Shown: piece by piece, positions 40,621 through 59,251 of the stretch
How positions within the stretch are numbered: the first letter of the stretch is position 1
How the letters are laid out: each line of letters begins with the position of its first letter
DNA from: Sorangium cellulosum
GTDB lineage: Bacteria > Myxococcota_A > Polyangia > Polyangiales > Polyangiaceae
Assembly (NCBI RefSeq): GCF_001589285.1
Contig: NZ_JEMA01000372.1
Coordinates: 145-64,144 of the forward strand
Direction of reading: 5' to 3'
DNA: 64,000 bases
The notes under the pieces: generated by a model
Told to the model about the DNA's origin: nothing
Seen by the model: the letters and a program-made list of their open reading frames with translations, nothing else
Databases searched by the model: none
Made by a program: the position numbers and the translations under genes

Positions 40621-41555
40621 ACATCCACGCGCGGTTCACCGTCGTTCCGAGCCGCATCCTGGGACTGCTCCGCGTAGTCTGCGCCTCCAAGGGCGGACAC
40701 CCGCGGGAGGAGGTGACCGCGTTAATGCAGCCTGAGCCGCTGCTGCGCGAGGGCAGGAAGAAGGGGGGCGGGGCCGATGACGACGAGCAGGAGAACAAGA
40801 AGAAGCCGGACTTGGCCAACGAAGCAATCGCGACGGCACTCGACATGGGACTCATCGAGGCGTACCGCGACGGTCATGATCGCGAACTGCTCCGCATTCC
40901 GGAGGCGATGCGGCGAAGACTGCTAATCAGCAGTGCCTTCTCGGACGAGGCGTGCTGGCAGTGCTTGGCCGCCGTTGCGCTCCAAGACGGCGCCCACGAC
41001 AACCCCTTCGCCGAGTTCTGCGCCTGGCTCCAGTTCTACACGCCCGTCCGACTGCCGGTCGATGAGAGCGCGATCCGGAAGGCGCTGGAGGACGACGGGC
41101 TCGAACTGGACCGCTTGCAGATGCGCAACAAGGCGGCGCTGCAGAATGCGTTCTACTGGTCTCACTACCTCGGGCTGTCGTGGCACCGGCGCCCAGGAAG
41201 GGTCTCGGACGGCGTGGTCCCGGACCCGTCGGGGTGCCTCCGGCGCCACATCGATGACGTGCTACCTCCGCGGCTAGGCGATATCCATGTGCGCGATCTG
41301 CGCGCGCGCATTGCGGCCGTCTGCCCTGTGCTCGACGGGGGCGTTCACCACGAGCGCGTCGGGCGCCGGCTGGCCGAGCGGAACCGCCCGCATGCGCTCG
41401 CACCGGACCGCCTCACGCCGGGGTTGTCCTTCGCGCTGCGCCATCTGCGCGACGCACGCATGATCGATTATTACTGTCCGAATGATCAGCGTGACTTCCT
41501 ACTTATGACGCGCGACGAGAAGATCGCCTTCGTCCGCCGCACCGAGGAGTCCTGA
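40617..41555 (+). CDS. dpdG: DpdG: conserved Dpd-system protein of unknown function
   Basis: The protein has 312 residues from the ATG at 40617, which overlaps the dpdF stop (ATGA). There is a winged-helix-like start (PSRILGLLRVVCASKGGHPREEV), a Lys/Glu-rich insert (about 40-65), then helical repeats (WQCLAAVALQDGAHDNPFAEFCAWLQFY). No catalytic motif. The assignment rests mainly on position between DpdF- and DpdH-type genes and on size. It may be an adaptor or DNA-recognition subunit; that is inference. Confidence 0.72.
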   Translation: MNIHARFTVVPSRILGLLRVVCASKGGHPREEVTALMQPEPLLREGRKKGGGADDDEQENKKKPDLANEAIATALDMGLIEAYRDGHDRELLRIPEAMRRRLLISSAFSDEACWQCLAAVALQDGAHDNPFAEFCAWLQFYTPVRLPVDESAIRKALEDDGLELDRLQMRNKAALQNAFYWSHYLGLSWHRRPGRVSDGVVPDPSGCLRRHIDDVLPPRLGDIHVRDLRARIAAVCPVLDGGVHHERVGRRLAERNRPHALAPDRLTPGLSFALRHLRDARMIDYYCPNDQRDFLLMTRDEKIAFVRRTEES

Positions 41556-41559
41556 GCGC

Positions 41560-44500
41560 ATGGCCCATACGTTCCCGCACCTCGTCTGCTGGCACGATCG
41601 CGCGCGCGCCGAGGTCATGAACACGATCGCACTCGACGTGCGCCCGTCGGTCTTCCGCGCGACCCACCACCCGAGCCCGCTACGCTTGCGGGGGGCCGTC
41701 GAGGGCCGCTTCGACGTCTTGGCCGAGGGCGACTACATCGAAGGCTTCCTGGCCCCAGCGGCCCCGCACGCCTTTGACGTGGCGGTGGGAGACAGCGGCA
41801 CCGGCAAGTCACACTTCGTGCGGTGGATCTACGAAGAACTGCGGCGCCGCGACCCCGCGGGCCGGCGCTACCGCGTCGTACTGGTGCCCCGCTCGAGCGC
41901 CAATCTCGCCGACGTCGTGCGCCGCATCCTCGAGGGCTTTGACGGCGAGATTGCGCGCGGGCTACGCCAGGAACTCGAGGGCGCGCAGAACCTGAGCCTC
42001 GCTGGTGCCAAGACCCGCGTGCTGGACGAGTTCGCGTACGTGCTTGAACATGAGAGGGCCCACATCGCGCCGCCGGGCCGCCAACTGGACGACCTCGAGC
42101 GCGAGGTGCTTGACGCGCTTCCGAGCCTGCTCCACGCGCCCCCGCTGCGCGAGGAACTGCTGAAGCGTTCTGAGGGCGCCGTCGAGCGGATCGCGCAGCA
42201 CGTGCTCGGCACGCGCGAGCGCGTCGAAGAAGAGGGACTGGACCTCGCGTGGAAGCGCGGCGATCTTGCGTTTACGCAGCGGGCGATCGACCGCGCGCAA
42301 GGCGCAGGCGATCTCGCCGCTCAGTTCCCTGAGGACCCCGCCCTCGCCGACCTCGCGACAGGCTTTCTCAACCGCGCGCGCGCCGTCGCGCTGCCTCGCC
42401 TGATCCGGCTGCGCCGTGGCGACCTGATCCGCGCGCTCGCCGAGGTCCGGCGGAGCATTGGGGGAGGCCGCGACCTGGTGCTCCTGATCGAGGATCTGTC
42501 GGTGACCGAAGGGCTCGACGCCGAACTGATCGAGGCGTTGCTGGTGCGCCCGTCAGAGGGCGGCGGTGCGCTTTGCAAGCTGCGTAGCGTCGTGGGCGTC
42601 ACGAACGACGACTTCGCGCGCATGCGCGACAACGTCAAAGAGGGCCGCATCCGGCAGGTCGTCTACTTCAATGTGCCGGTCGGGGACGATGAGGCGCATG
42701 CCTTTTCGGCAGAGGACCTCGCACGGTTCGCTGCGGGCTACCTCAACGCCACGCGACACGATATGGACGCGCTCGACGCATGGGCCGCGCGCGCCGCGCA
42801 CGACGAACCGTTGCCGTCACCCTGCGACGACTGCCGGGCGCAGCGGGACTGCCATCTGGCCTTCGGGAGCGTCGATGGGCGGGGGCTCTACCCGCTGTCC
42901 CGGGAGTCGCTCGTGCGGCTCTACCGCGCCGTTGCCGGGGCGGACGCGCGGAGCCGCGCCTTCAATCCGCGGTTGCTGGTCGGCCGGGTGCTCAACCGCG
43001 TGCTTGACGATGCCGAGCACGCCATTCCCGCGCAGAACCACCCGAGCGAGGAACTGCGGAACACCTTTGGCCTGCAGCTGGTCGGAGACCAGACCACACG
43101 CCAGATCCGAAACCAACTCCGCGACCAGAGCAAGGTCGAGCGGCTGGTTCGCCTCATCGAGATGTACTCGCCGCTCCCGCAGGCCGAGAAGCCGCCGCTG
43201 GACCCGGGCATTGCGGCGGCGTTCGAGGTGACCGGGGTGCAGTTCCTGACCGAGGCCTCGATACCGAGCGGCCCGGCGAAATCTCCCAAGCTGCCCTCGA
43301 CGCGGCCGCCCCCGCCTCCTAAGGTCGACCCGTTTGCTGCCTGGTTCAACGGGGCGCCGGTAGATGACACGCATCTGAACGCATGGCGCACCGCCATCGT
43401 TGACGCAGTAAAAGCGTGGATCGACTGGGATGCCGAGCGACTCGCGCTGGCTCGGTCGAAGCTGCGCGCACAGGATATCTGGATCGACGGCCAGGTAACC
43501 AAGATGAGGGGCACGCCGATCCTGTCGGTGACGCGCTCGCCCGAGGCCGCCGGAGCCCTCCGGCTGCTGACTGGATACATCCCGGCGACGACGGAGTCCG
43601 AGTACGACGACGGCTTGCTCAACGTGCGGGCGGTGATGCCCCAATGGGCGGACGCGGTGCGCGCGGGGCTTTCGCGATTCGTCACCGAGTTAGGCGCGGT
43701 CTCGCCCGCGCAGGTGGCCGCGAGCGTGCTCGCTGTGGGCGCGATGATCCGAGGAGCGGTCGGTCGCGATGCGTCGCCATCCGTGCTGCTTGCGGCGGCC
43801 CTTGAGCGGTGGCCGGACAAGGGCGAGGAGGGTCGGAGCCCGGAGTGGAAGGCTCTTTGGGGCGCATACACCACATCCAAACGCGCCCTGGAGGCGCGTG
43901 AGTATCTCGCCGATCTACTGGCCTGTTCGAAGGGTGGCGCGATGGGCACAATCATCGACCCAACGCCTGTGCTACCGGCGCTCGACTACGTCCGCCAGTA
44001 CGCCAAGCCCGTCGCGTTGCCGCCGGAGGCCGCCAGGTGGGACGTGTTCAAGGGCGTGTACGACTTAGCGAGAGAGGTGGCGCTGCACCTCGATCATGCG
44101 ATTGCCGCGGAGCGCGTAGCGGCGGAGGTGTGGTTGAACGAAATCCGAACGTTGGTCGACGTCTCGGCGCCCAAGAAGGCGCTCACCGCGGTCGATATGG
44201 CGTTGGAGACGGCTTTCCAGCACGACGCGTTCGATGCAAAGGGGCACAGCAAGATCCGGGAGCGCCTGAAGGAGGTCCGAGCCGACGCCATTAAGTCTAA
44301 CGCCCAGCATGCCGAGACGGCCCGCTCCGCTACGTCGGATTTCGAGCGACTCGTGGCGCTAGGTAAGCTCGACCGCGAGAAGATGGCCCTGAACCTTGAG
44401 TTGCTCCGTGAGGCGGACGTCTCCGTGCGGGCGTCTTCCGAGAAGACCGAGATCAAGATCAATGCGCTCACCGGCGGCGATCTACACGAGTTCGAGCAGG

Positions 44501-44574
44501 ACATCGGCGCACTGCTCGGCCGTTTGGCGACCGCACTGGGAGGCCTGGCCGGCGAGAGGGAAGTGGAATCATAG
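41560..44574 (+). CDS. dpdH: DpdH: large P-loop ATPase of the Dpd system
   Basis: The protein has 1004 residues. Walker A GDSGTGKSHFVRW lies at about 77-89 and a Walker B-like VLLIEDLSV at about 308, followed by a sensor region VVGVTNDDFARM. A Cys set CDDCRAQRDC (about 425) suggests a small zinc site. The C-terminal third is helical with probable coiled coils. The first 60 residues (HPSPLRLRG) may be a DNA- or partner-binding arm. The gene starts 4 bp after dpdG. In Dpd islands DpdH is the ATPase paired with DpdG and DpdI in the restriction set. Confidence 0.8.
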   Translation: MAHTFPHLVCWHDRARAEVMNTIALDVRPSVFRATHHPSPLRLRGAVEGRFDVLAEGDYIEGFLAPAAPHAFDVAVGDSGTGKSHFVRWIYEELRRRDPAGRRYRVVLVPRSSANLADVVRRILEGFDGEIARGLRQELEGAQNLSLAGAKTRVLDEFAYVLEHERAHIAPPGRQLDDLEREVLDALPSLLHAPPLREELLKRSEGAVERIAQHVLGTRERVEEEGLDLAWKRGDLAFTQRAIDRAQGAGDLAAQFPEDPALADLATGFLNRARAVALPRLIRLRRGDLIRALAEVRRSIGGGRDLVLLIEDLSVTEGLDAELIEALLVRPSEGGGALCKLRSVVGVTNDDFARMRDNVKEGRIRQVVYFNVPVGDDEAHAFSAEDLARFAAGYLNATRHDMDALDAWAARAAHDEPLPSPCDDCRAQRDCHLAFGSVDGRGLYPLSRESLVRLYRAVAGADARSRAFNPRLLVGRVLNRVLDDAEHAIPAQNHPSEELRNTFGLQLVGDQTTRQIRNQLRDQSKVERLVRLIEMYSPLPQAEKPPLDPGIAAAFEVTGVQFLTEASIPSGPAKSPKLPSTRPPPPPKVDPFAAWFNGAPVDDTHLNAWRTAIVDAVKAWIDWDAERLALARSKLRAQDIWIDGQVTKMRGTPILSVTRSPEAAGALRLLTGYIPATTESEYDDGLLNVRAVMPQWADAVRAGLSRFVTELGAVSPAQVAASVLAVGAMIRGAVGRDASPSVLLAAALERWPDKGEEGRSPEWKALWGAYTTSKRALEAREYLADLLACSKGGAMGTIIDPTPVLPALDYVRQYAKPVALPPEAARWDVFKGVYDLAREVALHLDHAIAAERVAAEVWLNEIRTLVDVSAPKKALTAVDMALETAFQHDAFDAKGHSKIRERLKEVRADAIKSNAQHAETARSATSDFERLVALGKLDREKMALNLELLREADVSVRASSEKTEIKINALTGGDLHEFEQDIGALLGRLATALGGLAGEREVES

Positions 44575-44576
44575 CA

Positions 44577-45314
44577 ATGGATCCTGCCGAAACGAAGCCA
44601 CCTAAGGGCGGTGAACTCGCCGCGCGTGCCGAGGCGCTCCAGTTCGCGGTTAGTACGTACGCGGGCTTGATTCCGAAGGCGCAAAAGATCAAGGGACTCG
44701 CGGTCCGCCGGAAGACTCTCCAGGACCTCGTCAATATTGTGGAGGGGCTCGCGGCATCGGCCCGCCTTGTGGCGAAGGCAACTGGGGAGAATCCCGCGGC
44801 GCGCGTCGCGGGCCTCAAGGAACTCTGCGCGGCGGTCGCGGGGCTCGCGAAGAAGGTCAGTCGCGATGTCACGGAGATCACGGACGCCAACGCCCTCTCG
44901 GCGCTCAAGACCGACAAGGTGTTTGCCAGCGCGCGCGAGGCGCTCCATGCTGCGTGGCAGCAGTGGGTGCTCCGGGACTTCGCAGCCGCAGGCCCGGAGA
45001 GTGTCCTTGCGCACTACCCCGCGTTCAAGGCCAAGGCCCAGGACGTCAAGCAGTTGCGCGAGAGCCTCGACAAGCTCGCGAGTAGACTCCCCGATACCGA
45101 ACACGACATCGACACCGTGCTCGAGGCGCGTTCGCGGCTTACTGCGGCCCTCGCCGAGCTCGCGGGCCCGGACCTCGACGCCGACGTTGCGGACTTCCTC
45201 CGTGCCGCCGCCACGACCGGCTATTCCGTTGAGGACCTGCTCGCGCGGCCCGCACTCATCGCGTGGATCCAGCGTCACGGTCTGGCCAAGACCCTCAGCA
45301 TCCGGGTGCGTTGA
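44577..45314 (+). CDS. dpdI: DpdI: coiled-coil-rich Dpd-system protein
   Basis: The protein has 245 residues and starts directly after the dpdH stop. It is almost wholly helical with heptad-like Ala/Leu/Lys patterns (LVNIVEGLAASARLVAKA; LKELCAAVAGLAKKVSRDV; VKQLRESLDKLASRL). No enzymatic motif or membrane segment. It is probably a structural partner of DpdH or DpdJ. The name is assigned from gene order in known Dpd clusters, not from a distinctive motif. Confidence 0.68.
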   Translation: MDPAETKPPKGGELAARAEALQFAVSTYAGLIPKAQKIKGLAVRRKTLQDLVNIVEGLAASARLVAKATGENPAARVAGLKELCAAVAGLAKKVSRDVTEITDANALSALKTDKVFASAREALHAAWQQWVLRDFAAAGPESVLAHYPAFKAKAQDVKQLRESLDKLASRLPDTEHDIDTVLEARSRLTAALAELAGPDLDADVADFLRAAATTGYSVEDLLARPALIAWIQRHGLAKTLSIRVR

Positions 45315-45339
45315 GCCCCTGGGATCGGAGGAACACCCG

Positions 45340-48300
45340 ATGGACGACGAAGAATTGGTGCTTCAGGCGCTCTACTCCTTGGAGGGACGCCGCCTCTCAG
45401 CGGGACAGTTCGACGGCTGGACGACACCGGCGGAGGTCGCCGCCGCGCTGCCTGAAGGGCACGCGCAGCGGGGCGACGCGCTCTGGACCCGCGCGGTGCT
45501 CGAGCGCCTTTGGCTCCGCCGGCGCGTGCTGCAGGTCCCGGACGCCAGCGAAGGAGCCGAGCCCCCCACGCTGCACGACGTGGTGCTCCGCGAGCGCGAC
45601 GCGTACGCTGACGCCGACACGCGGATCCCCGTGGAGCAGAACGACTGCCGGCTCGGCGACGGCTATCCGTGGGAGCGTGCCGCGCGGTACGCGGCCGACA
45701 TACCGACCCGCTATCGCTCGCGGGTCGCGGAGGTGACACGCCTGCTCTCGTTGAATTTCCAGCGCTTCGGCATGGCGCCGGCGACCGGCCTGCTGCGCTA
45801 CGAGCGCCGGTCGCAGGTCCGTCCGCTCTATGATGTGCCGCTCTCGAGGCTGGCCGACCAGGTCGCCGACGCGATCCAGGCCAGGCGGCTTCCGCTCGAC
45901 GTCGCCGACGATGCCACTGAGGTGTCGCTGGGGAGCGGCGTCGACCGAGCGCGGCTAGCCGCGGCCGTGCACGCCGTGCTCGGCGCCCTCGCGGACGACT
46001 TCGCGGTCCGCGGCGCCGAGGCAGTCGTCGCATCCTTCCAGGCGCGCTCGATCCTCGCCACGATGGCGGGGCTGTACTCGCCCGAGTACCGCGAGCAGTT
46101 CGCCGGCCACATCGTGACCGCGGGCGTCGGGTCGGGGAAGTCGTACGCGTTCCAACTCGGCGCGCTCATCCATGTTGCCTACGAAGCTCTCTGCGGCCGA
46201 CGAAAGCTCCAGGTCCTGTTCCTGTATCCCCGGGTGGTCCTTGCGGTGAACCAGTTCCAGGAGCTCTTCCGGCTCATCGACGGCGTCTCGAAGCGCCTGG
46301 CCAAGGAGCTGTCGGTGCCCCTCGCCAGCCCGGTGCTCGACGCCGGGGGCCAGCTCCCGCGACAGTTCTTCCCCGACCCAAGGGACCAAAAGGAGACCGG
46401 AGCGCGCTACAAGGCTATACAGCAGGCGTACCAGGAGCGGAGGCAGGTCCTCATTTCGAATCTCGACACGGTCGTCAACCGCCTTGTGCATCCCGAGGCA
46501 TCGCAGGGGCTCTGCAGGGATCTGGAGCTCGTGGTGCTGGACGAGGCGCACCTCTTGAGCGGACTCTACGGCGCCCACGCCAAGATGCTGCTAAAGCGTC
46601 TCTGCCAACTCCGGGCGCTCTGGCGGCTGCGCCGGGAGCACCCCGACCAGCTGTTCGAGGGTATCCTGAGCCGGCGCGGCGACGTGCGCGCGCCGTACTT
46701 CATCGGCGCGAGCGCGACCATCTCGGAGCCGCGTCAACACCTCGGCCGCGTGCTTGACGTGCCACCGTCGCGTCTCCGCCACGTGGACATCGGTGAGAAG
46801 GTCGAGACGGGATGGATCCACCACGTGTTTCTGCGGCAGCGGCCCGAGGTCAGCAGCATGACGGCCGTGACCAACGCGGTCTCGTGCCTGGTCCACAACC
46901 GCCGCGACGGGCTCTATCACGAGTACTACCAGCGCCGCCATGGCGGGGACCCGCTGCGCCTCGACGAGATCCCCAACCCCGTGCAGGCGCAGAACGGCCC
47001 GGTCGTTCCGCGCGCCACAGCGCATATTCACAAGACTCTGGGGTTTTCCGACTCCCTCGACGGGGTCAATCGATGGGCCGACCTCGTCGCGGATAACGAG
47101 CAGACCAAAACGAGCTCGATGTCCAACTCGCCCAACCCGGGGATGAGTAGCCTGCCGTACTTCGCTCGCTTCCAGGAGCCGCTGTGGCGCCAACTGCACC
47201 AGACCGCGTTCCCCGCAGAGGTGCCAAAGTGGCAGGAAACCGTTGCCCGACAGTATGGGGAACTGTGCCGCGACTGCAAGCGCGGCGTGCGGCGCGAGAT
47301 TGCGCGCGTCCCGCCGGGCCTCCGAGCCGCTCAGCAGCAGGCTGTCCGCAACCTTTGGCGGCTCGATCCGGACGCCAAGGATTCCTACGCGGTGTACCTC
47401 CACATCGGGAAGGACTGGCTGGAGAGTGAATGGTTCGCGCCGCTGCACGAGGCCGCCGCGGCCGATCGGATCGGCAACCTGGACCAGTGCGGTTTTCTCC
47501 GCGCCGGACTCTGCTGGTGGTGGTCACGCGACCACCTCGGGAGTAATCATCCGCAGCCCGCTACAGGTGCCGATCCGGTTAACGGCTTCAAGCGCCCCTG
47601 CGGCGCCGCGGAACAGGTATATCACCCGCTGAACGCGATCCGCGTGCGTGGGTTCACGTCGAAGGTCAACCTCGACGTCTTCGCTATCGACTCAATTAAC
47701 GATGTGTTCCGGGGACCCACGAGCGTGATGCTCCGGGGAAATCAGAGCCAGCTCGGCAACGAGACTCAGGACAACGTCGCGATGGTTATCGGGTCGCCGC
47801 GGATCGAGGTCGGCATCGATCTGGCGCGCGTGAGCGACGGTGTGACGTACCGCGCGATGCGCGATCCGGCGAGCTTGCAGCAGAAGGTCGGGCGCGTCGG
47901 GCGCGAGGCCGCGTCGGACAGCGTCCTCGTGCACGTCGTGACCGAGAACGCGCGTGACCATTTCTACTTTCGCAACACCCGGATCGCACTCGACCCCGAC
48001 TACCTCCAGCCGATCCCGCTCCACGAGAATAATCGCATCGTGGCTCGAACGCACTACTTCATGGCCATCGTTGACTTCCTCTGCCTCCAGGGGGACGGGC
48101 CGGCCCAGGGGCAACTCACGGACCTGGGCCACCGACTCGCGCTCATCAACGATCACGGGCTGGCGAAGCCATTCGCAGGCACCTGGGAGAAGAAGGTCCG
48201 CGCGGTATACGAGTTTCTCTTCGGGAACTCTCCTCGGGCCGCCCAGAATCTGACCAACCTCGCGCGCTATCTCGAGGGCCTCGGCGCGCGGCCAGACGAC

Positions 48301-50895
48301 ATCGCCGAGTCACGTTGCAACGCCCAGCCTCAGGACGCGCCGCTGTCGCGCGCAGCGGGAGCCGTGGACGTGTTCCGCCACGAACTCGGGCCGAACTTGC
48401 TGCTCACACCGCTGGGCGCGGTTGGCAAGCAAACCACGCTCGCCGCGATCTGCTCCTGGCCGGATATGACGTGGGGCAGGGTGCCGACGGCTGGCCTGCC
48501 ACGCCATGAGGAGTTCCTGCGGAGCCTGCCCGTCGACAAAGCGCAGCGGGACCGCTCCTACCTGTACCAGATCCTCACGCTCCCACTGTTCCTTCGCGGC
48601 GTGCCGGCACGCAACATCTCTGGGGACCAGCCCTTCGTCTGGGCCCCCAATCTATTCGAGGCTGCCGGAACCCAGCACGTCCGCATCTTCGAGGAGCGCG
48701 GCGGGCAACTCCGCGACTTGGACTTCGAGCCGCTCGGGCTCGCGCTGGCGCTGCTCGTCCCCGGGACCGTGACATACCGCTACGGCGCCAACCCGCGCAA
48801 GATTCCGGTCGCGCGGTTCGGCGCGCGGGGGCTGACCGAGCTGCAGCCCGGGCTGCAGGCGGTGCGGCTGGAGGTCGCTGACGCGGAGTTCTACCAGCCC
48901 GCGGATTGCGCGCCCCTCGCGCCCGCGGATCTACCCGCGAACTACCCGTGGGCCGGGGCCACAGTCCACGTGTACCGGCCTCGCCAGATCGGCACCATCT
49001 GGGCGTCCAGCGAGCCGCTGGTCACACCGGACGGGTTGCTTGTCGACGGTGACAGCGCGGGTTTCGACACCGAGGCAAAATTCCAAGTGCACACGCCACC
49101 GCGATGCTACCCGCTGCGGTGGTTCCGCATCGAGCTGGCGGCCATAGACGCGGCGCCGCCGCCGTGTCGGTTCGCCGCCGGGTTCGACGTGCCGCCCGGC
49201 CAGGCGCCCCTTAAGCCGCTGCCGCTCCCGGTCATACTCTCGCCCTTCAGTGCGATCCGCTACAGCCGCGAGCTGGATGTTACGGAGTTCGTCTGGGGCC
49301 TCGACCGCCAGTTTATGTCCCGCGATGTTCGTGATCCGGCGCGCCTGGTCTACTGCGACGCCGAGCAGAACCTCGCGCCCGCCGTGTTGGGGCGGCACTT
49401 CAAAACCCCGGGGCTCCAGTTCGACCTAGACCTAGGGCCGGCGTCCAGCACCGCACGATTCCTTACGAGCGTCTGGGAGCAACCGGCGTCACCGGTGCAC
49501 CAGGCCGTGCTGCTGAAAACTCTCTACGGGTTTCTTGAGGAACACGCACGGGCTCCCCTGCCCGATGACCAGCCTTCATGGGTGGATCGGAAGCGTCCAT
49601 CGCTATTCGTCGTCCGGAACCTGCGCACGCTCGTGCTCGCCCACCTGCTAGAGCGCTGGCATCCAGCACCCAAGGAGCGGCGGCGCCCGGATGCGCCGTT
49701 TGTCTTAACGTTTGATGACCTTGCCGGGTGCTTCACGCCCGGCCATCCCGCGTTCATCTCGCCGCCACGCTTCCGCGACCTCTGCGCGCGGGTGGCTGCC
49801 GTGCAGAACGCCGCTTCCGCCGACCTCCGGGAAGACACCCTGCTCGCCTGCCATCCCAACTTCGTGGGCGCCTGCGACGCGATCGGCGCGCTAACCTCGG
49901 CGTTTTTCCGCGCGACTGCCGAGGAATTGCTGCTCAACACGCTGGGGCTCACGCTACACGCGGCGGCGCTCCGCCTGACCGGCGCCGAGTCGGGCGACCT
50001 CGAGTACTTCTACCGCCGGCGCGACAACGTCGCGGCGCTCTACCTGTTCGACGCCGACGAGGCCGGCAACGGCACCACCGACCTCGTCCAGCGCACGTTC
50101 TACGTGTCGGCCGCAGAGCGGGTGCTGGACGCGCGGCGACGGGCGCTCAACCTCCCGACCGAGGCGCTCCCGACGCTCGACTTCGCAGACTGTCTGGAGG
50201 ACGCGTGCCAAGAGTGTGAGAGCAGCCAGGCGTCGCAGCTCGCTTATCAGGACGCCCCAGCTACCGGGCCGTGCCTAGCGGACCTGCGGAACGCGCGCGA
50301 GGGCGAGCGCCAGTCCGCCGGTCGCGTCTTCGATTTCTTGCGCGACCAGGTCGGACTCGCGTCCATGGACCACGCGCTCGCCTTGCAGCAGTGCCCGGAG
50401 TTCCTCATGTGGCTCAGCCGCTACCCGGTCTACGCGGGTGAGCCGCTCGTGCCGTCACGCGAAGTGCCGAACATCCAGGCGCTCGAATCGGCCCTCGGCT
50501 GCTGCATCGATGGGTGCGTCGCTTGTGTGGTGGCACCGGAGCAGAACCTGCGGGGTGTGCTCTCGGCGCGCGACACGGTGAGCAAGCTCCTGCTCGATGC
50601 GTTCTACCGCACGCAAGTGTGCGAGGCCGGGACACCGCTCGCGCAGGTCTGCTACCCGGGGACCGGGCCGGGGCGCACCGAACTGTGGACGGACCTCGCG
50701 ATGCGCGTCGCCTCCGCCGTCGGCCAGGACGCCGGCGAGCCGCCAGTCGTTGTGCGCCTGAACGCCGCGAGTGCGCCACTCGACGTCACCATCATGCGCG
50801 CCGCGGTGCCCGCCGGATGGCATCGCGTCTTCCGTCCCACGTGGGAGCCTGCCGGCATGCCCGGCCCACGCGTCCGCCCCCGCATGTCCCTTTGA
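45340..50895 (+). CDS. dpdJ: DpdJ: giant DEAD-box-like helicase with Cys-rich C-terminus
   Basis: The protein has 1851 residues. The start at 45340 (GGAGG 9-10 bp upstream) is chosen over a longer frame that is a shadow of dpdI. Motor motifs are Walker A VGSGKSYAF (about 262), VLDEAHLLSG (about 400), GASATISE, and the C-lobe SPRIEVGIDLARVSDG with QKVGRVGREA (about 850). The distal part resembles DUF1998-containing helicases (DrmB/MrfB style), with two Cys clusters: CLEDACQECE (about 1620) and CCIDGCVACVV (about 1725). It is the largest restriction-arm protein and probably the main DNA translocase. Confidence 0.87.
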   Translation: MDDEELVLQALYSLEGRRLSAGQFDGWTTPAEVAAALPEGHAQRGDALWTRAVLERLWLRRRVLQVPDASEGAEPPTLHDVVLRERDAYADADTRIPVEQNDCRLGDGYPWERAARYAADIPTRYRSRVAEVTRLLSLNFQRFGMAPATGLLRYERRSQVRPLYDVPLSRLADQVADAIQARRLPLDVADDATEVSLGSGVDRARLAAAVHAVLGALADDFAVRGAEAVVASFQARSILATMAGLYSPEYREQFAGHIVTAGVGSGKSYAFQLGALIHVAYEALCGRRKLQVLFLYPRVVLAVNQFQELFRLIDGVSKRLAKELSVPLASPVLDAGGQLPRQFFPDPRDQKETGARYKAIQQAYQERRQVLISNLDTVVNRLVHPEASQGLCRDLELVVLDEAHLLSGLYGAHAKMLLKRLCQLRALWRLRREHPDQLFEGILSRRGDVRAPYFIGASATISEPRQHLGRVLDVPPSRLRHVDIGEKVETGWIHHVFLRQRPEVSSMTAVTNAVSCLVHNRRDGLYHEYYQRRHGGDPLRLDEIPNPVQAQNGPVVPRATAHIHKTLGFSDSLDGVNRWADLVADNEQTKTSSMSNSPNPGMSSLPYFARFQEPLWRQLHQTAFPAEVPKWQETVARQYGELCRDCKRGVRREIARVPPGLRAAQQQAVRNLWRLDPDAKDSYAVYLHIGKDWLESEWFAPLHEAAAADRIGNLDQCGFLRAGLCWWWSRDHLGSNHPQPATGADPVNGFKRPCGAAEQVYHPLNAIRVRGFTSKVNLDVFAIDSINDVFRGPTSVMLRGNQSQLGNETQDNVAMVIGSPRIEVGIDLARVSDGVTYRAMRDPASLQQKVGRVGREAASDSVLVHVVTENARDHFYFRNTRIALDPDYLQPIPLHENNRIVARTHYFMAIVDFLCLQGDGPAQGQLTDLGHRLALINDHGLAKPFAGTWEKKVRAVYEFLFGNSPRAAQNLTNLARYLEGLGARPDDIAESRCNAQPQDAPLSRAAGAVDVFRHELGPNLLLTPLGAVGKQTTLAAICSWPDMTWGRVPTAGLPRHEEFLRSLPVDKAQRDRSYLYQILTLPLFLRGVPARNISGDQPFVWAPNLFEAAGTQHVRIFEERGGQLRDLDFEPLGLALALLVPGTVTYRYGANPRKIPVARFGARGLTELQPGLQAVRLEVADAEFYQPADCAPLAPADLPANYPWAGATVHVYRPRQIGTIWASSEPLVTPDGLLVDGDSAGFDTEAKFQVHTPPRCYPLRWFRIELAAIDAAPPPCRFAAGFDVPPGQAPLKPLPLPVILSPFSAIRYSRELDVTEFVWGLDRQFMSRDVRDPARLVYCDAEQNLAPAVLGRHFKTPGLQFDLDLGPASSTARFLTSVWEQPASPVHQAVLLKTLYGFLEEHARAPLPDDQPSWVDRKRPSLFVVRNLRTLVLAHLLERWHPAPKERRRPDAPFVLTFDDLAGCFTPGHPAFISPPRFRDLCARVAAVQNAASADLREDTLLACHPNFVGACDAIGALTSAFFRATAEELLLNTLGLTLHAAALRLTGAESGDLEYFYRRRDNVAALYLFDADEAGNGTTDLVQRTFYVSAAERVLDARRRALNLPTEALPTLDFADCLEDACQECESSQASQLAYQDAPATGPCLADLRNAREGERQSAGRVFDFLRDQVGLASMDHALALQQCPEFLMWLSRYPVYAGEPLVPSREVPNIQALESALGCCIDGCVACVVAPEQNLRGVLSARDTVSKLLLDAFYRTQVCEAGTPLAQVCYPGTGPGRTELWTDLAMRVASAVGQDAGEPPVVVRLNAASAPLDVTIMRAAVPAGWHRVFRPTWEPAGMPGPRVRPRMSL

Positions 50896-50921: not shown

Positions 50922-51485
50922 ATGCCCAACGTGACCTGGCAGGAGCCTCAGGCGCTGGTTGATCTGCTGGCAATGAACTTGTTCGCACACCGCAACGACA
51001 TGGGCCTTCCCGGGCCGCGACAGATTGCGGTTGTGTCGCCTTGGCTCTCGGACGTCGAACTCGCGCTTCGACCCGGTGTCTGGCACCAGAACTTGGCGGT
51101 TGGCGCGGCTGACGGCAGCCCGACACTGGTCGACGTGCTGCGTGCCTTCTGCGCAGAGGGCTGGCTGGTTGAGCTCGCCGTGTTGTCATACGGTGCGGGG
51201 CCACCCATCCCGAAGGACCCTGCGAAGTTCTTAGCGGAGCGGCAGTGTCTGGTGCGGATGCTCGCCGCCGGCGCGGCGGTCTACTTCGTCCCGGGCCTAC
51301 ACGCAAAAGGCGTCGTGACGCCTCTCGGCATCATCACCGGGTCGACGAATTTGACCACCAGTGGGCTGTTCGCCCAGTCGCAGAACGCCAACTATTTCGC
51401 ACATAACCACGCCGACTACGCAGCGAATCGGGTGCAGTTGTTGTCGCGTTATGCAGGCATTGCCCCGGCGACGGCCGTTCCCTGA
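50922..51485 (+). CDS. dpdK: DpdK: phospholipase D-like nuclease of the Dpd system
   Basis: The protein has 187 residues. The PLD active-site motif is present once: GLHAKGVV (His-x-Lys, about 126-130) followed by GSTNLTTSG, as in dimeric PLD nucleases. The first half (PRQIAVVSPWLSDVEL) gives the usual PLD strand and helix order. It would be the DNA-cutting subunit of the restriction arm, working as a dimer. It is the last gene of the plus-strand operon, 27 bp after dpdJ and convergent with dpdB1, whose stop is 247 bp away. Confidence 0.87.
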   Translation: MPNVTWQEPQALVDLLAMNLFAHRNDMGLPGPRQIAVVSPWLSDVELALRPGVWHQNLAVGAADGSPTLVDVLRAFCAEGWLVELAVLSYGAGPPIPKDPAKFLAERQCLVRMLAAGAAVYFVPGLHAKGVVTPLGIITGSTNLTTSGLFAQSQNANYFAHNHADYAANRVQLLSRYAGIAPATAVP

Positions 51486-51732: not shown

Positions 51733-52887
51733 TCAGGCGCCGTTCAGGCTTAACTGCCGCCCGCGCGGCGCGCCGGGCTTGTTCCACACAATCGATTTGT
51801 ATTGGAGCAGGAGGTAGTTGACAAGCATCTGGATATCCTTGGTCGTGTTCTGAATCTCGTTCCACTTCCGCTGTTGCCCGGGTCCGAACTCCCAGTACCC
51901 GTCGGTCCAGCGACAGAGCGGCTTCAGCGGCTTCAGATCTCGCACGAACATCGCCTCAGTCGGTAGCCCTTTGTGACGATACCGCTCTGCGATTGTATCC
52001 ATCAGGAATCCGAGGCTGACGATCCCGGCACCATGCATCAAACGCGACCGCTTCGGAGGTAGCCCCCACGAATCATCAAAAACGGTGCTTACAGCACGCC
52101 AGAAAGCGAAGAGAACGCCGAGCATAGCCTCGATGTCGGCCTCACCTCCGCTGCCATCGCGCAATCGGTACAGCACACCGTCACTCAGACTGTTCTCCAC
52201 CATCTTGAGGATAGAGTTATCCTTGATCGCCCCTGTCGGGTTCGTTGGCGTGTGGATCATTCCCCGCAGCGGCGACGCCGCATCTTGGTTCAGCCTGATC
52301 ATGAGATGGGCGGGCAGCCGGCGGCGCTGGAGCAACGTCGGGAGCGCGGTATCGGTCGTCGGGAGCAGTTCGTAGATAAGCCCCTTGGGCAGCGGCTTGG
52401 TCGAATTGACGAGGATAAACTGCTCCGTCTGCTCGCGCACATCATCGGTCACGAACGCGCTCACGCAGATCGGGAACGACTTGACAGAAGCATCCCGGAT
52501 CGCCGCGAGCCGTTGCTGGCCGTCCACAATGAACCCGGGACGCTCCTCCTCGGGAGCTTCATCATCCACCGGAATCACGAGTGTTCCGGCACGCGCGTAT
52601 GCGCCTTTGTGCCCGGGGTGCGACTCAAAGCGAACGCGCGAGTCGAACGCCAGCACTACGGCATTCGGGATCATCGGCGACTCGCTCTCGACGTAGGTCC
52701 GGATCTCCTCGATGTGCGCCAGCACCTCCGGCCGTTGATAGCCCTGTAGGTCGTCCCCCGTGTTCCGCCGAATACGGGACACCGTCGCAAATGATGGGAC
52801 TAACTTGGCGTCCACCGCGAAGGTGTAGAGGGTGCGCTTAGCAGACTGACGCACCTCAATGGCTGGGAGACGGAGTTCGGTCTTCAT
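51733..52887 (-). CDS. dpdB: DpdB1: DGQHR-domain (DndB/ParB-like) partner of DpdA, first copy
   Basis: The protein has 384 residues. The DGQHR motif is VDGQQRLAAI (121-130), followed by the conserved LVNSTKPLPKGL (about 160). QGYQRPEV (48-55) and the C-terminal RLMHGAGI and WTDGYW blocks are shared with the second copy. DpdB works with DpdA to place preQ0 in DNA and belongs to the ParB/sulfiredoxin-like fold. The ATG at 52887 overlaps the dpdA stop (ATGA), so it is coupled to dpdA. It is the last gene of the modification operon. Confidence 0.9.
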   Translation of the reverse strand: MKTELRLPAIEVRQSAKRTLYTFAVDAKLVPSFATVSRIRRNTGDDLQGYQRPEVLAHIEEIRTYVESESPMIPNAVVLAFDSRVRFESHPGHKGAYARAGTLVIPVDDEAPEEERPGFIVDGQQRLAAIRDASVKSFPICVSAFVTDDVREQTEQFILVNSTKPLPKGLIYELLPTTDTALPTLLQRRRLPAHLMIRLNQDAASPLRGMIHTPTNPTGAIKDNSILKMVENSLSDGVLYRLRDGSGGEADIEAMLGVLFAFWRAVSTVFDDSWGLPPKRSRLMHGAGIVSLGFLMDTIAERYRHKGLPTEAMFVRDLKPLKPLCRWTDGYWEFGPGQQRKWNEIQNTTKDIQMLVNYLLLQYKSIVWNKPGAPRGRQLSLNGA

Positions 52888-54191
52888 GAGAATACCTCAG
52901 GAGCGGAGGTGCGACGGGCGTGTGGAGGTGGAGACGTCCGCTCGGCGATCTGGTCAGTACCACCGCCGAGTTGCCGTGCGAGTCTTCGATAGAATACCCA
53001 CGTGTTATGAAATCCGCGGCGCCGGTTGCGCTCCGCGCCGCGGAACAGGATCACGTGGTGCCCCAGCTTGCGGCAGACATCGCAGGAGCATTGTTTCCAG
53101 GGGCGATCTGTGAGCACCTCGCGATATGTCTCGCGGTAATCCGACAAATTTCCGCACAGCTCGTCGTATCGCTGAAGCGAATCGAGCACAACACCGACTT
53201 CAAGCTCTCCCGCATCGAACCGCCGCATTCCATCGAGGCACGTACGCTCTAACTCGCGCGCCTTCCCCTGTGACACCTTACCCGACGAGATCCGCTTCTG
53301 TAGCTTCGGGTTTCCCTCCACCTGTGGAATGCGCACGGCGACGTACGTACGGTCCATAGTGTGGTAGTTGTCCTTGTCATCCTTGAACGCTTGGCGGAGT
53401 GGGGAGGTGCTATCGAAGCTCTTGACGCCCATTTGGGCGAAGACTTGTACTTGTTCGGTCCGTGTTACACCGAGAAGGTGTAGCCGGGTATCCTTGCCTC
53501 TCACGCTGTCAATAGCCCCGAGCGCGGCCAGTATCTCCGGCGTCTTGAGAGGGACCATTCCACCGACTGCGATGTAGCGATAGCCTATCTTCTGGAGTTG
53601 CTGCGTGGCCCTCGCGTACGAACGCGGGCTCCACCCCTGGGCCACACCGAGCGGCTCGAAAGGTAGTCGTTCATCCTTCCATCGCCTGAAGAACTCGCTC
53701 GCGAGTTCAAGCGTGATCTCTTGCCGCTCGCGCAGTTCGGCTGGCACCTCGGCGCCAGGTTCATCCCACTCGGCACTGTACGCCAGGATCACGTGGTCTA
53801 CGGAGATGCCGTAGTCAAACCCGCAATCGACGTAGAATTGAATCACCTCGTCGACTGTGTAGGGTGGAACTTGATCCTTGACATACGTGAACGCTCCGCA
53901 GTCGCCCATTGTTGCGATGGGTACGTCACTTTTTCGGTCAATGCGGAAGAACTCGCGTGCCCCCACGCGGAGCAGCCTGTGACGCTGCGCTAGCGTGTAG
54001 CGTCCCCCGGCGCTTTCGGAGCCGTCGACGATGCCCTTCGAGACCAGGATACCGTCGAGCACGCGCTCCGCGAATACCTCATGGGCGTAGAGGTCGTCGC
54101 GTTGGCGCAGGCGCGTCGCGGACCGTCGCTCACGCTCGAAATCGAAGCTTGGATCCACGAGATCCTGACTGTCAGGCAGAAAGTACTTCAC
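52884..54191 (-). CDS. dpdA: DpdA: DNA tRNA-guanine-transglycosylase paralogue
   Basis: The protein has 435 residues with a GTG start at 54191 that overlaps the dpdB2 stop (GTGA); a longer frame to 54476 is a shadow of dpdB2. It keeps the TGT plan: MGDCGAF (Asp 97) for base recognition and catalysis, VGGMVPL, and GVKSFDSTSPLR with the nucleophilic Asp at 260. The zinc site is CSCDVC (368, 370, 373) plus His 395. DpdA swaps guanine for preQ0 in DNA, instead of acting on tRNA as bacterial TGT does. It is coupled to a dpdB on each side. Confidence 0.93.
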   Translation of the reverse strand: MKYFLPDSQDLVDPSFDFERERRSATRLRQRDDLYAHEVFAERVLDGILVSKGIVDGSESAGGRYTLAQRHRLLRVGAREFFRIDRKSDVPIATMGDCGAFTYVKDQVPPYTVDEVIQFYVDCGFDYGISVDHVILAYSAEWDEPGAEVPAELRERQEITLELASEFFRRWKDERLPFEPLGVAQGWSPRSYARATQQLQKIGYRYIAVGGMVPLKTPEILAALGAIDSVRGKDTRLHLLGVTRTEQVQVFAQMGVKSFDSTSPLRQAFKDDKDNYHTMDRTYVAVRIPQVEGNPKLQKRISSGKVSQGKARELERTCLDGMRRFDAGELEVGVVLDSLQRYDELCGNLSDYRETYREVLTDRPWKQCSCDVCRKLGHHVILFRGAERNRRRGFHNTWVFYRRLARQLGGGTDQIAERTSPPPHARRTSAPEVFS

Positions 54192-55366
54192 CGCGTTTCG
54201 CCCCTTTGATCGTGGTAGGTCCGAAGCAAGAAATCCGAGAGGCCGCGGACGTGCGCCGGCACGTTCTGGAGCTCGTTCCAGCGCAGGCCGAGCTCGGTCC
54301 AGGAGCCCGAAGTCCAGTGGCATGCGCGGGCGAGAGGGGAAAGTTCGCGCAGAACGCGCCGCGGCGCGTCGGCCGCATCGACGTTGATAGATCCCATCAC
54401 CCTGTCCATCAGCCGGCCCATAGCACGCATGCCGGCGCTGTGCATCAGGCGACTCTGGGTGGGCGGCAGCCCCCAAGCATCGGGGAAGGTGTCCCGTACG
54501 GCATTCCAGTAAACGAGCAGGAGCTTTCTGATCCCGGCGAAGTCAGTTTGCGCGGTGGCCACGTTGCGGTAGGAGAACAGGCAGCCCGAGGGGTTCGTGA
54601 GGCTCTCCTGCAGGATTTGCATGACCGATGTGTCAGAGAGCACCTCGCTCTTGCGAGCTCCCTTCGTCGACGAAGCGCGACGAATGAGACCGTAAAAAGG
54701 GGACTTAGGATCTCGATTCAAAAGGTCGCATAGGACCGCCGGTGCGCGCCGGATGGCGAGGTTCGACGGCAGGATTGTGTCGACGTCCGGCAGGAGCTCG
54801 CTGATGAGCCCGCGTGGCAGCGGCTTCGTGCTGTTCACCAGAAGGAACTGCTCTCGCTGTGTCGCGACATCGTCGGCCACGAAGGCGTTGACAGCCACGG
54901 GGAAGTCATTGCGTTGGCTTCTGGAAAGGGCCATCGCGCGCTGCTGGCCGTCGACGATCCAGGCGGGCTTCGGGTCGTCCAGACCTGGGAGTGGGATCAC
55001 GATGGTTCCCGCGTCGGCGAGTCCATCATCAGCGCCAGGGCCGCGCTCTCTCTGGAAACGCACGGACGAGGAGAGGGACAGGATGATCGAGTTCGGGAAC
55101 AGCATGCCGCCTTGGCGGCCGTCGAGATAGGCCTGGATGTTTCGGATGTGCTGGCGTACCTCGGGACGTTGGTAGCCGAGCAACTCGCCTCGGGCGTCGC
55201 GTGCGATGCGCGAGATGTCCGCGATCTTCAGGATCTCTTCAGCGCGGAGACTGAAGAGGTAAAGAGGTCGCTCCGGATCCTGCATGATGCGCAGTGCTCT
55301 GCGACGGATCACCGCACGGCGGATGATCCCCTTGTGGGCGGTCGTCTTCTTCGCGGCGCGCGGCAT
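54188..55366 (-). CDS. dpdB: DpdB2: second DGQHR-domain partner of DpdA
   Basis: The protein has 392 residues. The ATG at 55366 overlaps the dpdC stop (TGATG). Compared with DpdB1 it has a longer basic N-terminus (MPRAAKKTTAHKG), the motif VDGQQRAMAL (138-147), the same LVNSTKPLPRGL, GYQRPEVR and RLMHSAGM blocks, and a distinct middle (GIRKLLLVYWNAVRD). Both copies are full length with all shared motifs, so neither looks decayed. By eye they are perhaps about one third identical, so the duplication is old or one copy was acquired. Its stop overlaps the dpdA start. Confidence 0.9.
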   Translation of the reverse strand: MPRAAKKTTAHKGIIRRAVIRRRALRIMQDPERPLYLFSLRAEEILKIADISRIARDARGELLGYQRPEVRQHIRNIQAYLDGRQGGMLFPNSIILSLSSSVRFQRERGPGADDGLADAGTIVIPLPGLDDPKPAWIVDGQQRAMALSRSQRNDFPVAVNAFVADDVATQREQFLLVNSTKPLPRGLISELLPDVDTILPSNLAIRRAPAVLCDLLNRDPKSPFYGLIRRASSTKGARKSEVLSDTSVMQILQESLTNPSGCLFSYRNVATAQTDFAGIRKLLLVYWNAVRDTFPDAWGLPPTQSRLMHSAGMRAMGRLMDRVMGSINVDAADAPRRVLRELSPLARACHWTSGSWTELGLRWNELQNVPAHVRGLSDFLLRTYHDQRGETR

Positions 55367-56322
55367 CAACGTTCCTTTACCTGGAGAAAAAGCTGCCTGA
55401 ACCGTGCCTGTTCGCATGCGCGCCCGCTGTCACGGAGGGCCCTGAGCAACTGCGTGTGCGTGGCCGTTGGATTGCTTCGAAGGTTCTGGGCAACGAAGCT
55501 GCGAACGGCTTCGTCGTCGAGTGGGGTTCGATCATATTGCTGAGGAGGCGGCGCCGCGCGGGCTAGACCGATGAAGCGATCTCGGACAGCGGTGGCGGCG
55601 AGCCCGCGTCGGGCGGCTTCCTCGAGGATGCGCCGGGCGATGCGTGCATGCAGGGACAGTCGGCTCCCGCCGACCGTCGTCTGCAGCGACGCGACAGATG
55701 GAACCCAATTCCGGCGCAGCGTTTCGTGGGAAGTCCCTGGATCTCCGGAGACGATGAGCAGGTCGTCCTGCTCCCGCAGCGCGGATGCGGCTTGCGCTAA
55801 GTCGTCCGCCATCGCGCGGACGTATCGGGGCGAGGCCACGACGAGCAGCTTCGCACCCGCAGACGCAAGCGCCAGATCCGCCAGGGTCCGGGGTGCGGTT
55901 TGGTGCGGCCCCGGCCGCCCGGCCAGCGCATGCCACCAGCGGCGCGCGGTCTCATCTCCCGCGGTGCCTTCCGCGACGGAGTCGGGGTGGCCCGGCGTGA
56001 ACGTCGCCCCGTACGCGCGGAGGTGCGCTTCCGCGGGCACGAGTCCGTACCCAGCGGACGCCACCCACAAGCGAGCGTCCAGCCCCGCCTCATGTGCAAC
56101 GCGCGGCAGGTCACGGACCACGGTCCAATGATCGCCAGCGTAGAGATCGACCGCCGGAACCGACGGCGAGCTGTGCTGCTCGAGTGTGCGCCACCAGGCA
56201 CCGAAGAGGTCCCCCGGGCGCTTCTCGCGAACGGCTTGGATGCGCAGATCCCCCGGAACCGGAAGCCGCTTCCGATCAGTGCAACCGGCGACAATCTGGA
56301 CGACCGGACGAGTCACGATCAC
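55366..56322 (-). CDS. dpdC: DpdC-type protein (converts DNA preQ0 to the amide form)
   Basis: The protein has 318 residues from the GTG at 56322; another GTG at 56316 has a better-placed AAGG. The first half has a YaaA/DUF6884-like motif order: QIVAGCTDRKRL, AVDLYAGDHW, VASAGYGLVP, LRAYGATFTPGH. Next come VVASPRYVRAM and VSGDPGTSHE. The last 80 residues are helical. In Salmonella the DpdC protein turns 2'-deoxy-preQ0 in DNA into 2'-deoxy-7-amido-7-deazaguanosine. The assignment rests on motifs and on position next to dpdA/B and the preQ0 genes. Confidence 0.8.
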   Translation of the reverse strand: MIVTRPVVQIVAGCTDRKRLPVPGDLRIQAVREKRPGDLFGAWWRTLEQHSSPSVPAVDLYAGDHWTVVRDLPRVAHEAGLDARLWVASAGYGLVPAEAHLRAYGATFTPGHPDSVAEGTAGDETARRWWHALAGRPGPHQTAPRTLADLALASAGAKLLVVASPRYVRAMADDLAQAASALREQDDLLIVSGDPGTSHETLRRNWVPSVASLQTTVGGSRLSLHARIARRILEEAARRGLAATAVRDRFIGLARAAPPPQQYDRTPLDDEAVRSFVAQNLRSNPTATHTQLLRALRDSGRACEQARFRQLFLQVKER

Positions 56323-56330
56323 CTTGGATT

Positions 56331-57197
56331 CTACAGAAAAGGGCGCGGCGCTACACCGCTGCCGGATCCCCCGCCAAGGGGACGCTGCGGCGGCTCCTGC
56401 CTGCCGCTCCGCGCCTGCTCTACCTGCGCGAACGCGCTGTGGTTGTGGATACTCTCGTCGCTCTTCGCGTGCACCCTGAACCAGGCGACGCGCGGGTCCT
56501 CCTGGAGCTTCAGCGCCACGTCGCGTACGACATCCTCGACAAACGCCGGGTTGTCGTAGGCCTGCATCGTTACGTGGCGCTCGTCCGGACGCTTCAGGAG
56601 GGGGTACACGGGGGCCGACGCCGATGCCTCGGCGACCTCGACGAGCTCCTCGATCCAGATGAAGTTCGACGGATCGGGCGTAGGCGACGTCCCACGGACC
56701 TCGATCGTCACATAGGTCCGCTGGTTGTGCGCGCCGTAGTCGCTGATGGCCTTGCTGCAGGGGCAGAGGGTCGTGACTGGTACCCGGACGCCGAGCACGA
56801 AGTCTTCGCTCGTGCCGCTCGTCTCACCGGTGAGCGAGCACTCGTAGTCGATCAGGCCGCAGGCGCCGCTCACCGGGGCCCGCCGCTCCAGAAAATAGGG
56901 GAACACAACCTTCACCTGGGCGGTCTCCGCATGCAGTCGTTCGCGCAGGGCGCGCAGGATCCGCGGCAGGGTGCGTACCGTCACCTCACCGCGGTGCTCC
57001 TCGAGCACCTCGATGAAGCGGCTCATGTGCGTCCCCTTGAAGTCGTGGGGAAGCCCTACGGACATCGAGATCTTTGCGATGGTGTGCTGCCGCTCGTGGG
57101 CGCGGTCGAGCACCACGATCGGGTAGGCGAGGTCGCTGACCCCAGCCTGGTTGATGGGGATGCCGCGTGCGTCACGACGACCCTGCACGTCCTCCAT
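56331..57197 (-). CDS. folE2: GTP cyclohydrolase I type B (FolE2), first step of preQ0 synthesis
   Basis: The protein has 288 residues from the ATG at 57197 (GAGG 8 bp upstream, inside the end of queD); the longer frame to 57404 is a queD shadow. FolE2 marks are MSVGLPHDFKGTHMSRF, the Cys of LCPCSKAISDYGAHNQR and FIWIEELVEVAE. It converts GTP to dihydroneopterin triphosphate. This is the metal-flexible FolE2 form rather than the zinc enzyme FolE. The C-terminal 25 residues are Pro/Gly/Arg-rich. It sits between queD and dpdC, so it serves the DNA-modification operon. Confidence 0.93.
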   Translation of the reverse strand: MEDVQGRRDARGIPINQAGVSDLAYPIVVLDRAHERQHTIAKISMSVGLPHDFKGTHMSRFIEVLEEHRGEVTVRTLPRILRALRERLHAETAQVKVVFPYFLERRAPVSGACGLIDYECSLTGETSGTSEDFVLGVRVPVTTLCPCSKAISDYGAHNQRTYVTIEVRGTSPTPDPSNFIWIEELVEVAEASASAPVYPLLKRPDERHVTMQAYDNPAFVEDVVRDVALKLQEDPRVAWFRVHAKSDESIHNHSAFAQVEQARSGRQEPPQRPLGGGSGSGVAPRPFL

Positions 57198-57198
57198 C

Positions 57199-57558
57199 TT
57201 AGCCCTCTCCTCGATAGATACAGCCGGAGGTGCACGTTTCACGAACGACGATCGCTGAGAGGCCCGGCAGCGATGGGGCGAGCTTTCCCCAGATCCACTT
57301 CGCCAAGTTCTCGCTTGTCGGGTTAGATAAGCCTTCAATTTCGTTGAGGAAATTGTGATCGAGTACCTTGTGCGCAGGCTCAAACGCAGCCTTGATATCC
57401 GCAAAATCCAGCACCCAGCCGGTTTCCCTCTCCACGTCGCCGCGTACGTGGACCTCGCAGCGGAAGGAGTGTCCGTGTAGTCGGCTGCACTTATGGCCGG
57501 GGGGCACGTTGGGCAGCCGATGCGCGGCTTCGAAGGTGAATTCCTTGAAAATCTCCAT
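57199..57558 (-). CDS. queD: 6-carboxytetrahydropterin synthase (QueD)
   Basis: The protein has 119 residues, a normal length. Zinc ligands are His in EAAHRLP (15) and the two His of LHGHSF; the catalytic Cys lies in [15 protein letters not shown] and LDHNFLN complete the family pattern. A Glu near the end ([11 protein letters not shown]) matches the substrate-binding Glu. It turns dihydroneopterin triphosphate into 6-carboxy-tetrahydropterin. The stop is 1 bp from the folE2 start, and the start is 11 bp after queE. Confidence 0.95.
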
Positions 57559-57569
57559 GCGTCACCCTC

Positions 57570-58211
57570 TCAAGGGATTCCGAGCATCTTGTGCATTTGA
57601 AGGCTGAGCCGCCATTGCGGATGCTCCAAGCAGTAGCGCAGCGCGAGTTCGGTGTTTCGTTGTCGCAACAGGCCATCCATCGGCTGCAGGTAGAAGCGCG
57701 AAAAATTGAGGCCTTCGAAGACGTGAGGCTCGGCGCCTTCCTGGGGAAATACGAGTTTCAACTCGTCCCCGGAGTTAAGCAGCAGGTCGGTGCCCGCCTT
57801 GGGGCTGACGCATGTCCAGTCGATCCCAGGTGGTGGGAGCTGCGTTCCGTTCGTCTCGATTGCTACTTCGAAGTCCGCTGCATGGAACGCCTCAACGAGC
57901 GCCCTGTCGAGTTGGAGAAGCGGTTCGCCTCCTGTGCAGACGACGTAACGCCGGTTGACCGGCGCGGCGTTATGGGGCCAGGCGTTTGCTACGGCTTGAG
58001 CGAGGTCTTGCTCAGTTGTGAACCGTCCACCGCCTGGTCCGTTCATGCCTACGAAATCTGTGTCGCAAAAGCGGCAAACCGCTCCCTGGCGGTCCTCCTC
58101 GCGACCCGTCCATAGATTACACCCAGTGAAGCGGCAAAAGACGGCCGGTCTACCAGCTTGGGCTCCCTCGCCTTGCAGGGTGTAGAAGATCTCTTTAACC
58201 AAGTATGTCAT
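57570..58211 (-). CDS. queE: 7-carboxy-7-deazaguanine synthase (QueE), radical SAM
   Basis: The protein has 213 residues from the ATG at 58211, which overlaps the queC stop (ATGA). It begins [18 protein letters not shown]. The radical-SAM cluster is the long-spaced QueE form [11 protein letters not shown], then VCRFCDTDF. The SAM-binding [11 protein letters not shown] and IETNGTQ follow. It rearranges 6-carboxy-tetrahydropterin to 7-carboxy-7-deazaguanine. It belongs to the Dpd modification operon. Confidence 0.95.
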
Positions 58212-58921
58212 GCGAGAGCACGCGCATCGACGCGGTAGGGAGCTGGATCTGTGAGACCGCTCTCCGCGAAGCCCTTCAGACGCAGGAGGCAAGCATCGCA
58301 TCGCCCGCAGGCCTCGCCCTGAGCAGACGGGTCGTAGCAGGTGAGCGTCAGCTCGTACTCGACACCGAGCGCCAATCCACGCTGGATAATCTGTGCTTTG
58401 GTCAGGTGGATGAGCGGCGTATGAATTTTGAGATGCTGTCGCCCTTCTACGCCTGACTTCGTCGCGAGATTCGCCATACGCTCGAAAGCTTCAATGTACT
58501 CGGGGCGGCAGTCCGGGTAGCCGCTGTAGTCGAGGGCGTTGACACCCAGAAATATGTCACTCGCGCCGAGTACTTCCGCCCATGCGAGGGCGAAGGACAG
58601 GAAAATCGTATTCCGTGCAGGGACATAGGTGACGGGGATACCGTTGCCGATAGCGTCAAGAGAACGCCCCTTAGGCACGGCGATGTCGCTCGTGAGAGCG
58701 GAGCCTCCGAACACCCTCAGATCGATCTGCGCGACGACGTGCTGGATGCCACCAAAGCGCTGCGCAACGCGTCGCGCGGCTTCGATCTCTCCCTCATGTC
58801 GCTGGCCATAGCGGAAGGTGAGAGCGTGAGTGTCGTATCCCTCGCTCTGCGCGATGGCCAGTGTGGTCGTAGAGTCGAGTCCACCGCTCAAGAGTACGAC
58901 AGCTTTCGGTTTGTTCAGCAT
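58208..58921 (-). CDS. queC: 7-cyano-7-deazaguanine (preQ0) synthase (QueC)
   Basis: The protein has 237 residues. The PP-loop [14 protein letters not shown] (8-21), [27 protein letters not shown], and the zinc site [14 protein letters not shown] near the C-terminus are all present. It converts 7-carboxy-7-deazaguanine to preQ0 with ATP and ammonia, giving the base that DpdA inserts. GAGGGAGA stands before the ATG. It starts 9 bp after the HTH gene and overlaps queE. Confidence 0.96.
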
Positions 58922-59188: not shown

Positions 59189-59251
59189 GCTGTACTGGTG
59201 TTCAGGTTGCAGAGCGTAACAGCTGTCACGAACCGTCAGGTTCTGGTGCAA

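Follow-up and report, generated by a model that had tools for sequence, protein, structure and literature searches.

The window analysed here, a stretch of 64,000 nucleotides from Sorangium cellulosum contig NZ_JEMA01000372.1, carries genes of a Dpd system, a bacterial system that replaces a guanine in the cell's own DNA by an unusual base. FolE2, QueD, QueE and QueC make preQ0, DpdA swaps preQ0 for guanine in DNA with DpdB giving ATP-dependent help, DpdC converts the inserted preQ0 to dADG, and DNA that lacks the modification is restricted by the dpdE-K arm. On the minus strand of the window the order of transcription is queC-queE-queD-folE2-dpdC-dpdB-dpdA-dpdB, with all four preQ0 supply genes inside the operon (Table 1). 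The restriction arm, dpdE-F-G-H-I-J-K, lies on the plus strand and is convergent to the modification operon. We designate the copy of DpdB encoded upstream of dpdA as DpdB-U and the downstream copy as DpdB-D. Judged by its sequence, this is a real, intact and apparently complete cluster for 7-deazaguanine DNA modification and restriction, with the core order dpdC-dpdB(U)-dpdA-dpdB(D).

Table 1. Genes of the Dpd cluster, in window positions.
Feature	Positions	Strand	Properties and best evidence
dpdE, SNF2-type helicase, restriction arm	34844..38113	+	PADLOC DpdE 4.7e-178
dpdF, DEAD helicase, restriction arm	38110..40620	+	PADLOC DpdF 3.3e-177
dpdG	40572..41555	+	PADLOC DpdG 2e-5 (weak); iterated profile finds homologues in other clusters, flanked by dpdF and dpdH
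dpdH, AAA-type ATPase	41560..44574	+	PADLOC DpdH 3.3e-86
probable dpdI	44577..45314	+	No PADLOC match; homologues beside dpdJ in 13 other Dpd loci
dpdJ, large DEAD-helicase protein	44737..50895	+	PF00270 1.6e-11; homologous to dpdJ elsewhere; true start probably near 45310
dpdK, phospholipase D-like	50922..51485	+	PADLOC DpdK 4.1e-10
dpdB-D	51733..52887	-	384 aa; ATG; NF041060 490 bits; PADLOC DpdB 4e-151
dpdA, DNA-guanine transglycosylase	52884..54191	-	435 aa; GTG; NF041059 565.9 bits
dpdB-U, accessory paralogue (putative)	54188..55366	-	392 aa; ATG...TGA; NF041060 418.8 bits; U group in DpdB trees
dpdC	55366..56322	-	318 aa; PADLOC DpdC 2.7e-85
folE2, GTP cyclohydrolase, preQ0 step 1	56331..57404	-	PF02649 5.7e-92 (residues 70-326); NF010200 above cut-off; true start probably inside the annotated frame, past the end of queD
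queD, 6-carboxytetrahydropterin synthase	57199..57558	-	PF01242 130 bits, window 57205-57555 (contig 57349-57699)
queE, 7-carboxy-7-deazaguanine synthase	57570..58301	-	TIGR04508 345 bits, cut-off 240
queC, 7-cyano-7-deazaguanine (preQ0) synthase	58208..58921	-	PF06508 1.8e-75; TIGR00364 above cut-off

Over residues 1-408, DpdA matches 7UI4, a DNA-guanine transglycosylase of known structure, at 5e-124, and it scores well above the bacterial-type NF041059 cut-off of 200 bits. No dpdD was found beside dpdK-dpdJ, and a Polyangium DpdD query run against the genome, with no positive control, returned no match. Just upstream of queC, a small HTH_17/MerR-type protein is encoded on the minus strand (58931-59251) and is a candidate regulator of the operon. 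Beyond it, a minus-strand stretch at 60127-63946 adjoins the Dpd cluster and encodes a family 2 glycosyltransferase, a carbamoyltransferase C-terminus and a protein with weak, below-cut-off similarity to cytosylglucuronate synthase (TIGR04467). These genes probably belong to a separate biosynthetic cluster.

The initial annotation of this DNA had reported two intact DpdB proteins flanking a single DpdA, all translationally coupled, and both the coordinates and the junctions are correct. The stop of dpdC and the start of dpdB-U overlap at TGATG, and the dpdB-U/dpdA and dpdA/dpdB-D junctions are 4-nt overlaps, GTGA and ATGA, respectively. Each DpdB exceeds the NF041060 equivalog cut-off of 300 bits, the two are 39% identical to each other, and the same genome gave no DpdB match besides these two copies. 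As the annotation had described, the pair differs widely outside a few shared blocks, and all four of the blocks that it listed (DGQQR, LVNSTKPLPxGL, GYQRPEV and RLMHxAG) are found in both proteins. It had also named the loss of essential residues from one copy as a result that would count against its view; neither copy is broken, and the motifs are kept in both.

Across the two classes of DpdB, the GxQR and DGQQR (VDGQQR) motifs, N161 and E173 of the next segment (DpdB-D numbering) and the SRLxH motif are 96-100% conserved. Each class has near-invariant residues of its own: W136, R108-G109 and S232 in U (numbered on the window U protein), and T215, P217 and G219 in D. AF2 models of the window proteins have a mean pLDDT of 87.4 (U) and 91.2 (D). 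In both, the N-terminal domain precedes a helical part and has matches to ParB, Noc, KorB and sulfiredoxin. The best Z scores are middling, 8.9 for U and 8.1 for D, and the ParB-like matches agree with the published picture of DpdB as a ParB-like ATPase required for insertion (PMC12839542). DndB of the phosphorothioation system shares Pfam PF14072 and the DGQxR domain with the window proteins; however, both of these pass the DpdB equivalog cut-off and not a Dnd one. No dnd modification genes were found beside them, the neighbors being Dpd and preQ0 genes.

The initial annotation had noted that the described minimal machinery uses one DpdB, which holds for the characterised enterobacterial system, dpdCAB (PMC12707154), and a single D-type copy is present in all of the enterobacterial loci that we surveyed. 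The Dpd system of Salmonella enterica Montevideo and other enterobacteria (dpdC-dpdA-dpdB, dpdD-K) has the same modification core as the window, with a 7UI4-like DpdA and a DpdC, and its restriction arm is likewise convergent to that core (compare L018). It has only the D-type DpdB, whereas the window adds a second DpdB between dpdC and dpdA, has its own folE2-queCDE, and has no dpdD detected next to dpdK-dpdJ. The window's order, dpdC-dpdB(U)-dpdA-dpdB(D), recurs in Polyangium sp. 6x1 (L024), on plasmids of Sinorhizobium americanum (NZ_CP013053.1) and Agrobacterium vitis (CP146243.1), where both copies are annotated as DpdB, and in Micromonospora spp. These other two-dpdB clusters differ from the window only in divergence, position of the que genes and restriction arm. 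The nearest relatives of the window U, A and D proteins are all those of Polyangium sp. 6x1, at 67, 74 and 77% identity, respectively.

To see how common the arrangement is, we surveyed loci found with a six-sequence DpdA profile, taking the best 80 of 201 related genome loci together with four viral contigs and plasmid and phage records. Only a DpdB that adjoins DpdA and shares its strand was counted, and the tally includes one extra locus that was read completely. Among the 88 dpdA loci with an adjoining dpdB, 57 (65%) have dpdB on both sides of dpdA and 31 have it downstream only, in a sample that leans towards the window's DpdA because of how the genome loci were chosen. Even draws of genomes from three phyla, with the centers not counted, gave the pair in three of five dpdB-bearing genomes, and plasmid records with a DpdB match had it in two places in 9 of 16 cases. 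Six distant DpdA proteins, on four viral contigs and two plasmids, have no adjoining dpdB. The rarity of the dpdB pair that was implied at the outset is not borne out by these counts. Tandem dpdB had been named as a finding that would speak against the proposal if it were the usual state in all Dpd clusters; among the loci surveyed it is largely the usual state, though not in all clusters. A 2025 preprint, in the portion available, reports more additional copies of dpdB (801) than of any other dpd gene, and in that portion does not split the extra copies into classes (PMC11888242). Frequent extra dpdB copies had already been reported there. The window locus is an unremarkable example of an architecture that is common. 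Among individual loci, dpdB-D downstream of dpdA appears to be in pieces in Nannocystis pusilla (L034) and to be interrupted by about 4.8 kb in an Acidobacteriaceae MAG (L083). On a Vibrio contig (L091), two divergent dpdA-dpdB pairs occupy opposite strands.

The two copies are not equivalent in their distribution. D is present throughout, and U is missing from about a third of the clusters, including those of the enterobacterial type. No case of U without D was found among the loci with enough sequence; three loci that appeared to have only U either reach the edge of the contig or locus (L042, L015) or have a wider gap (L048). In loci with D only, dpdC stands directly before dpdA, and in 53 of 54 paired loci it stands directly before dpdB-U, showing that U sits as a single gene between C and A. 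In 52 of the 57 paired loci, the stop of U and the start of dpdA share exactly 4 nt. When the presence of U is mapped on the DpdA tree, at least about 10 changes are needed, 6 of them forced by well-supported branches. We conclude that U is optional, having been gained or lost repeatedly, and that D is constant. Close relatives illustrate this: two acidimicrobial loci without U (L056 and L057) and one with U (L058) have DpdA and DpdB-D proteins that are 85-90% identical and DpdC proteins that are 68-71% identical. The closeness of A and D in these loci suggests that neither has had to adapt much to U.

We also asked what else accompanies U. An association with one restriction arm is unsupported, as U is found both with dpdD-K-J arms and with dpdE-F-G-H arms. 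In-cluster queC/queE genes lie nearby in 48 of 51 U loci and in 4 of 23 loci without U, a link that rests on about five independent pairs and is therefore not phylogenetically significant. Several genomes with dpdA and dpdB (L047, L056, L057/L058, L060, L063 and L088), several of them from Acidimicrobiia and one from another actinobacterium, gave only weak or partial matches to QueC when searched in full, some being incomplete MAGs. Such genomes may salvage preQ0 or use another base.

The annotation had left to a tree of DpdB homologues the question of whether the two copies are paralogues or of separate origin, and the answer is that they are ancient paralogues. In a FastTree phylogeny of 145 DpdB proteins, every one of the 57 upstream copies falls in a single group (local support 100). 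With seven other DGQHR proteins as the outgroup, IQ-TREE places the 24 sampled U copies on one side of a branch with support of 87/92, and the downstream copies form another side with weak support (59/65). On these sequences the U copies make up one clade that is well, though not decisively, supported. The U copies group together against the D copies across several phyla, which dates the pair to an ancient duplication. U and D are on average 36.4% identical when taken from one locus and 36.5% when taken from different loci, and this equality argues against any recent duplication or gene conversion, so a recent tandem duplication can be set aside. A degenerate second copy is ruled out by motifs that are intact in the window and across the U class, whose members share 54% mean pairwise identity over several phyla. 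Two paired loci that took no part in profile building (L119 and L120) sort as expected, the U profile giving the higher score to each upstream copy and the D profile to each downstream copy (own-class versus other-class bits of 570 vs 368 and 536 vs 347, and 524 vs 344 and 432 vs 247). Distances among U, D and A proteins correlate at 0.88-0.94, much of which is explained by co-inheritance alone.

ParB proteins work on DNA as nucleotide-bound dimers. Going by family roles, we predict that the que and fol genes of the window supply preQ0, that DpdA and DpdB-D insert it, and that DpdC converts it to dADG. DpdB-U, from a gene coupled to dpdA, would be made together with DpdA. We hypothesize that it then joins the DpdA/DpdB-D machine as an accessory ParB-like subunit, that U and D form a mixed complex on DpdA and DNA, and that U adjusts the sites or the amount of base insertion instead of doing a separate job. 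The coupling to DpdA, the constant company of D, the kept motifs and the optional presence of U all suggest such a role, to which we assign a probability of about one half; the physical association and the tuning are the parts that we infer. Against it, U is dispensable, as shown by the clusters that do without it and by its changes on the DpdA tree, A and D seem to need little adjustment to its presence, co-inheritance accounts for much of the distance correlation, and the structural matches are middling. More tentatively, DpdB-U could be a second, functionally distinct class of DpdB, whose heteromer with D acts with DpdA to give a site choice or a switch that is missing from the single-DpdB Salmonella system.

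Three other roles for DpdB-U were weighed. It is rather unlikely that U is a DndB-like regulator with no part in base insertion, acting by repression of the operon or by limiting the use of nucleotides. DndB, a relative in the ParB superfamily with the same Pfam domain, PF14072, is described as a regulator (PMC12707154; PMC12839542), and optional presence would suit such a protein; however, U keeps the motifs of D, lies inside the modification operon with its 4-nt coupling to dpdA, and has DpdB, not DndB, as its best NCBIfam and PADLOC match. We consider it unlikely that U and D are alternative partners through which a single DpdA gains two sequence specificities. In favor of this, two subfamilies that are ancient, conserved separately and marked by different near-invariant residues stand around one transglycosylase, yet a real alternative partner would be expected to occur by itself in some loci, and U never replaces D, D alone being the only single state seen. 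That the copies are redundant leftovers of duplication, as the repeated loss or gain of U might suggest, is highly improbable, since redundant copies would not be kept across several phyla at such identity and with their motifs intact.

The papers that we consulted describe no role for the second DpdB. A single DpdB serves the best-studied Dpd system, but two that are ancient and separately conserved are present in most of the related clusters surveyed, and thus a common version of this machine contains a part whose role those papers do not describe. What the second DpdB does is a sound question, and close natural relatives with and without U, such as L058 compared with L056 and L057, make its role testable.
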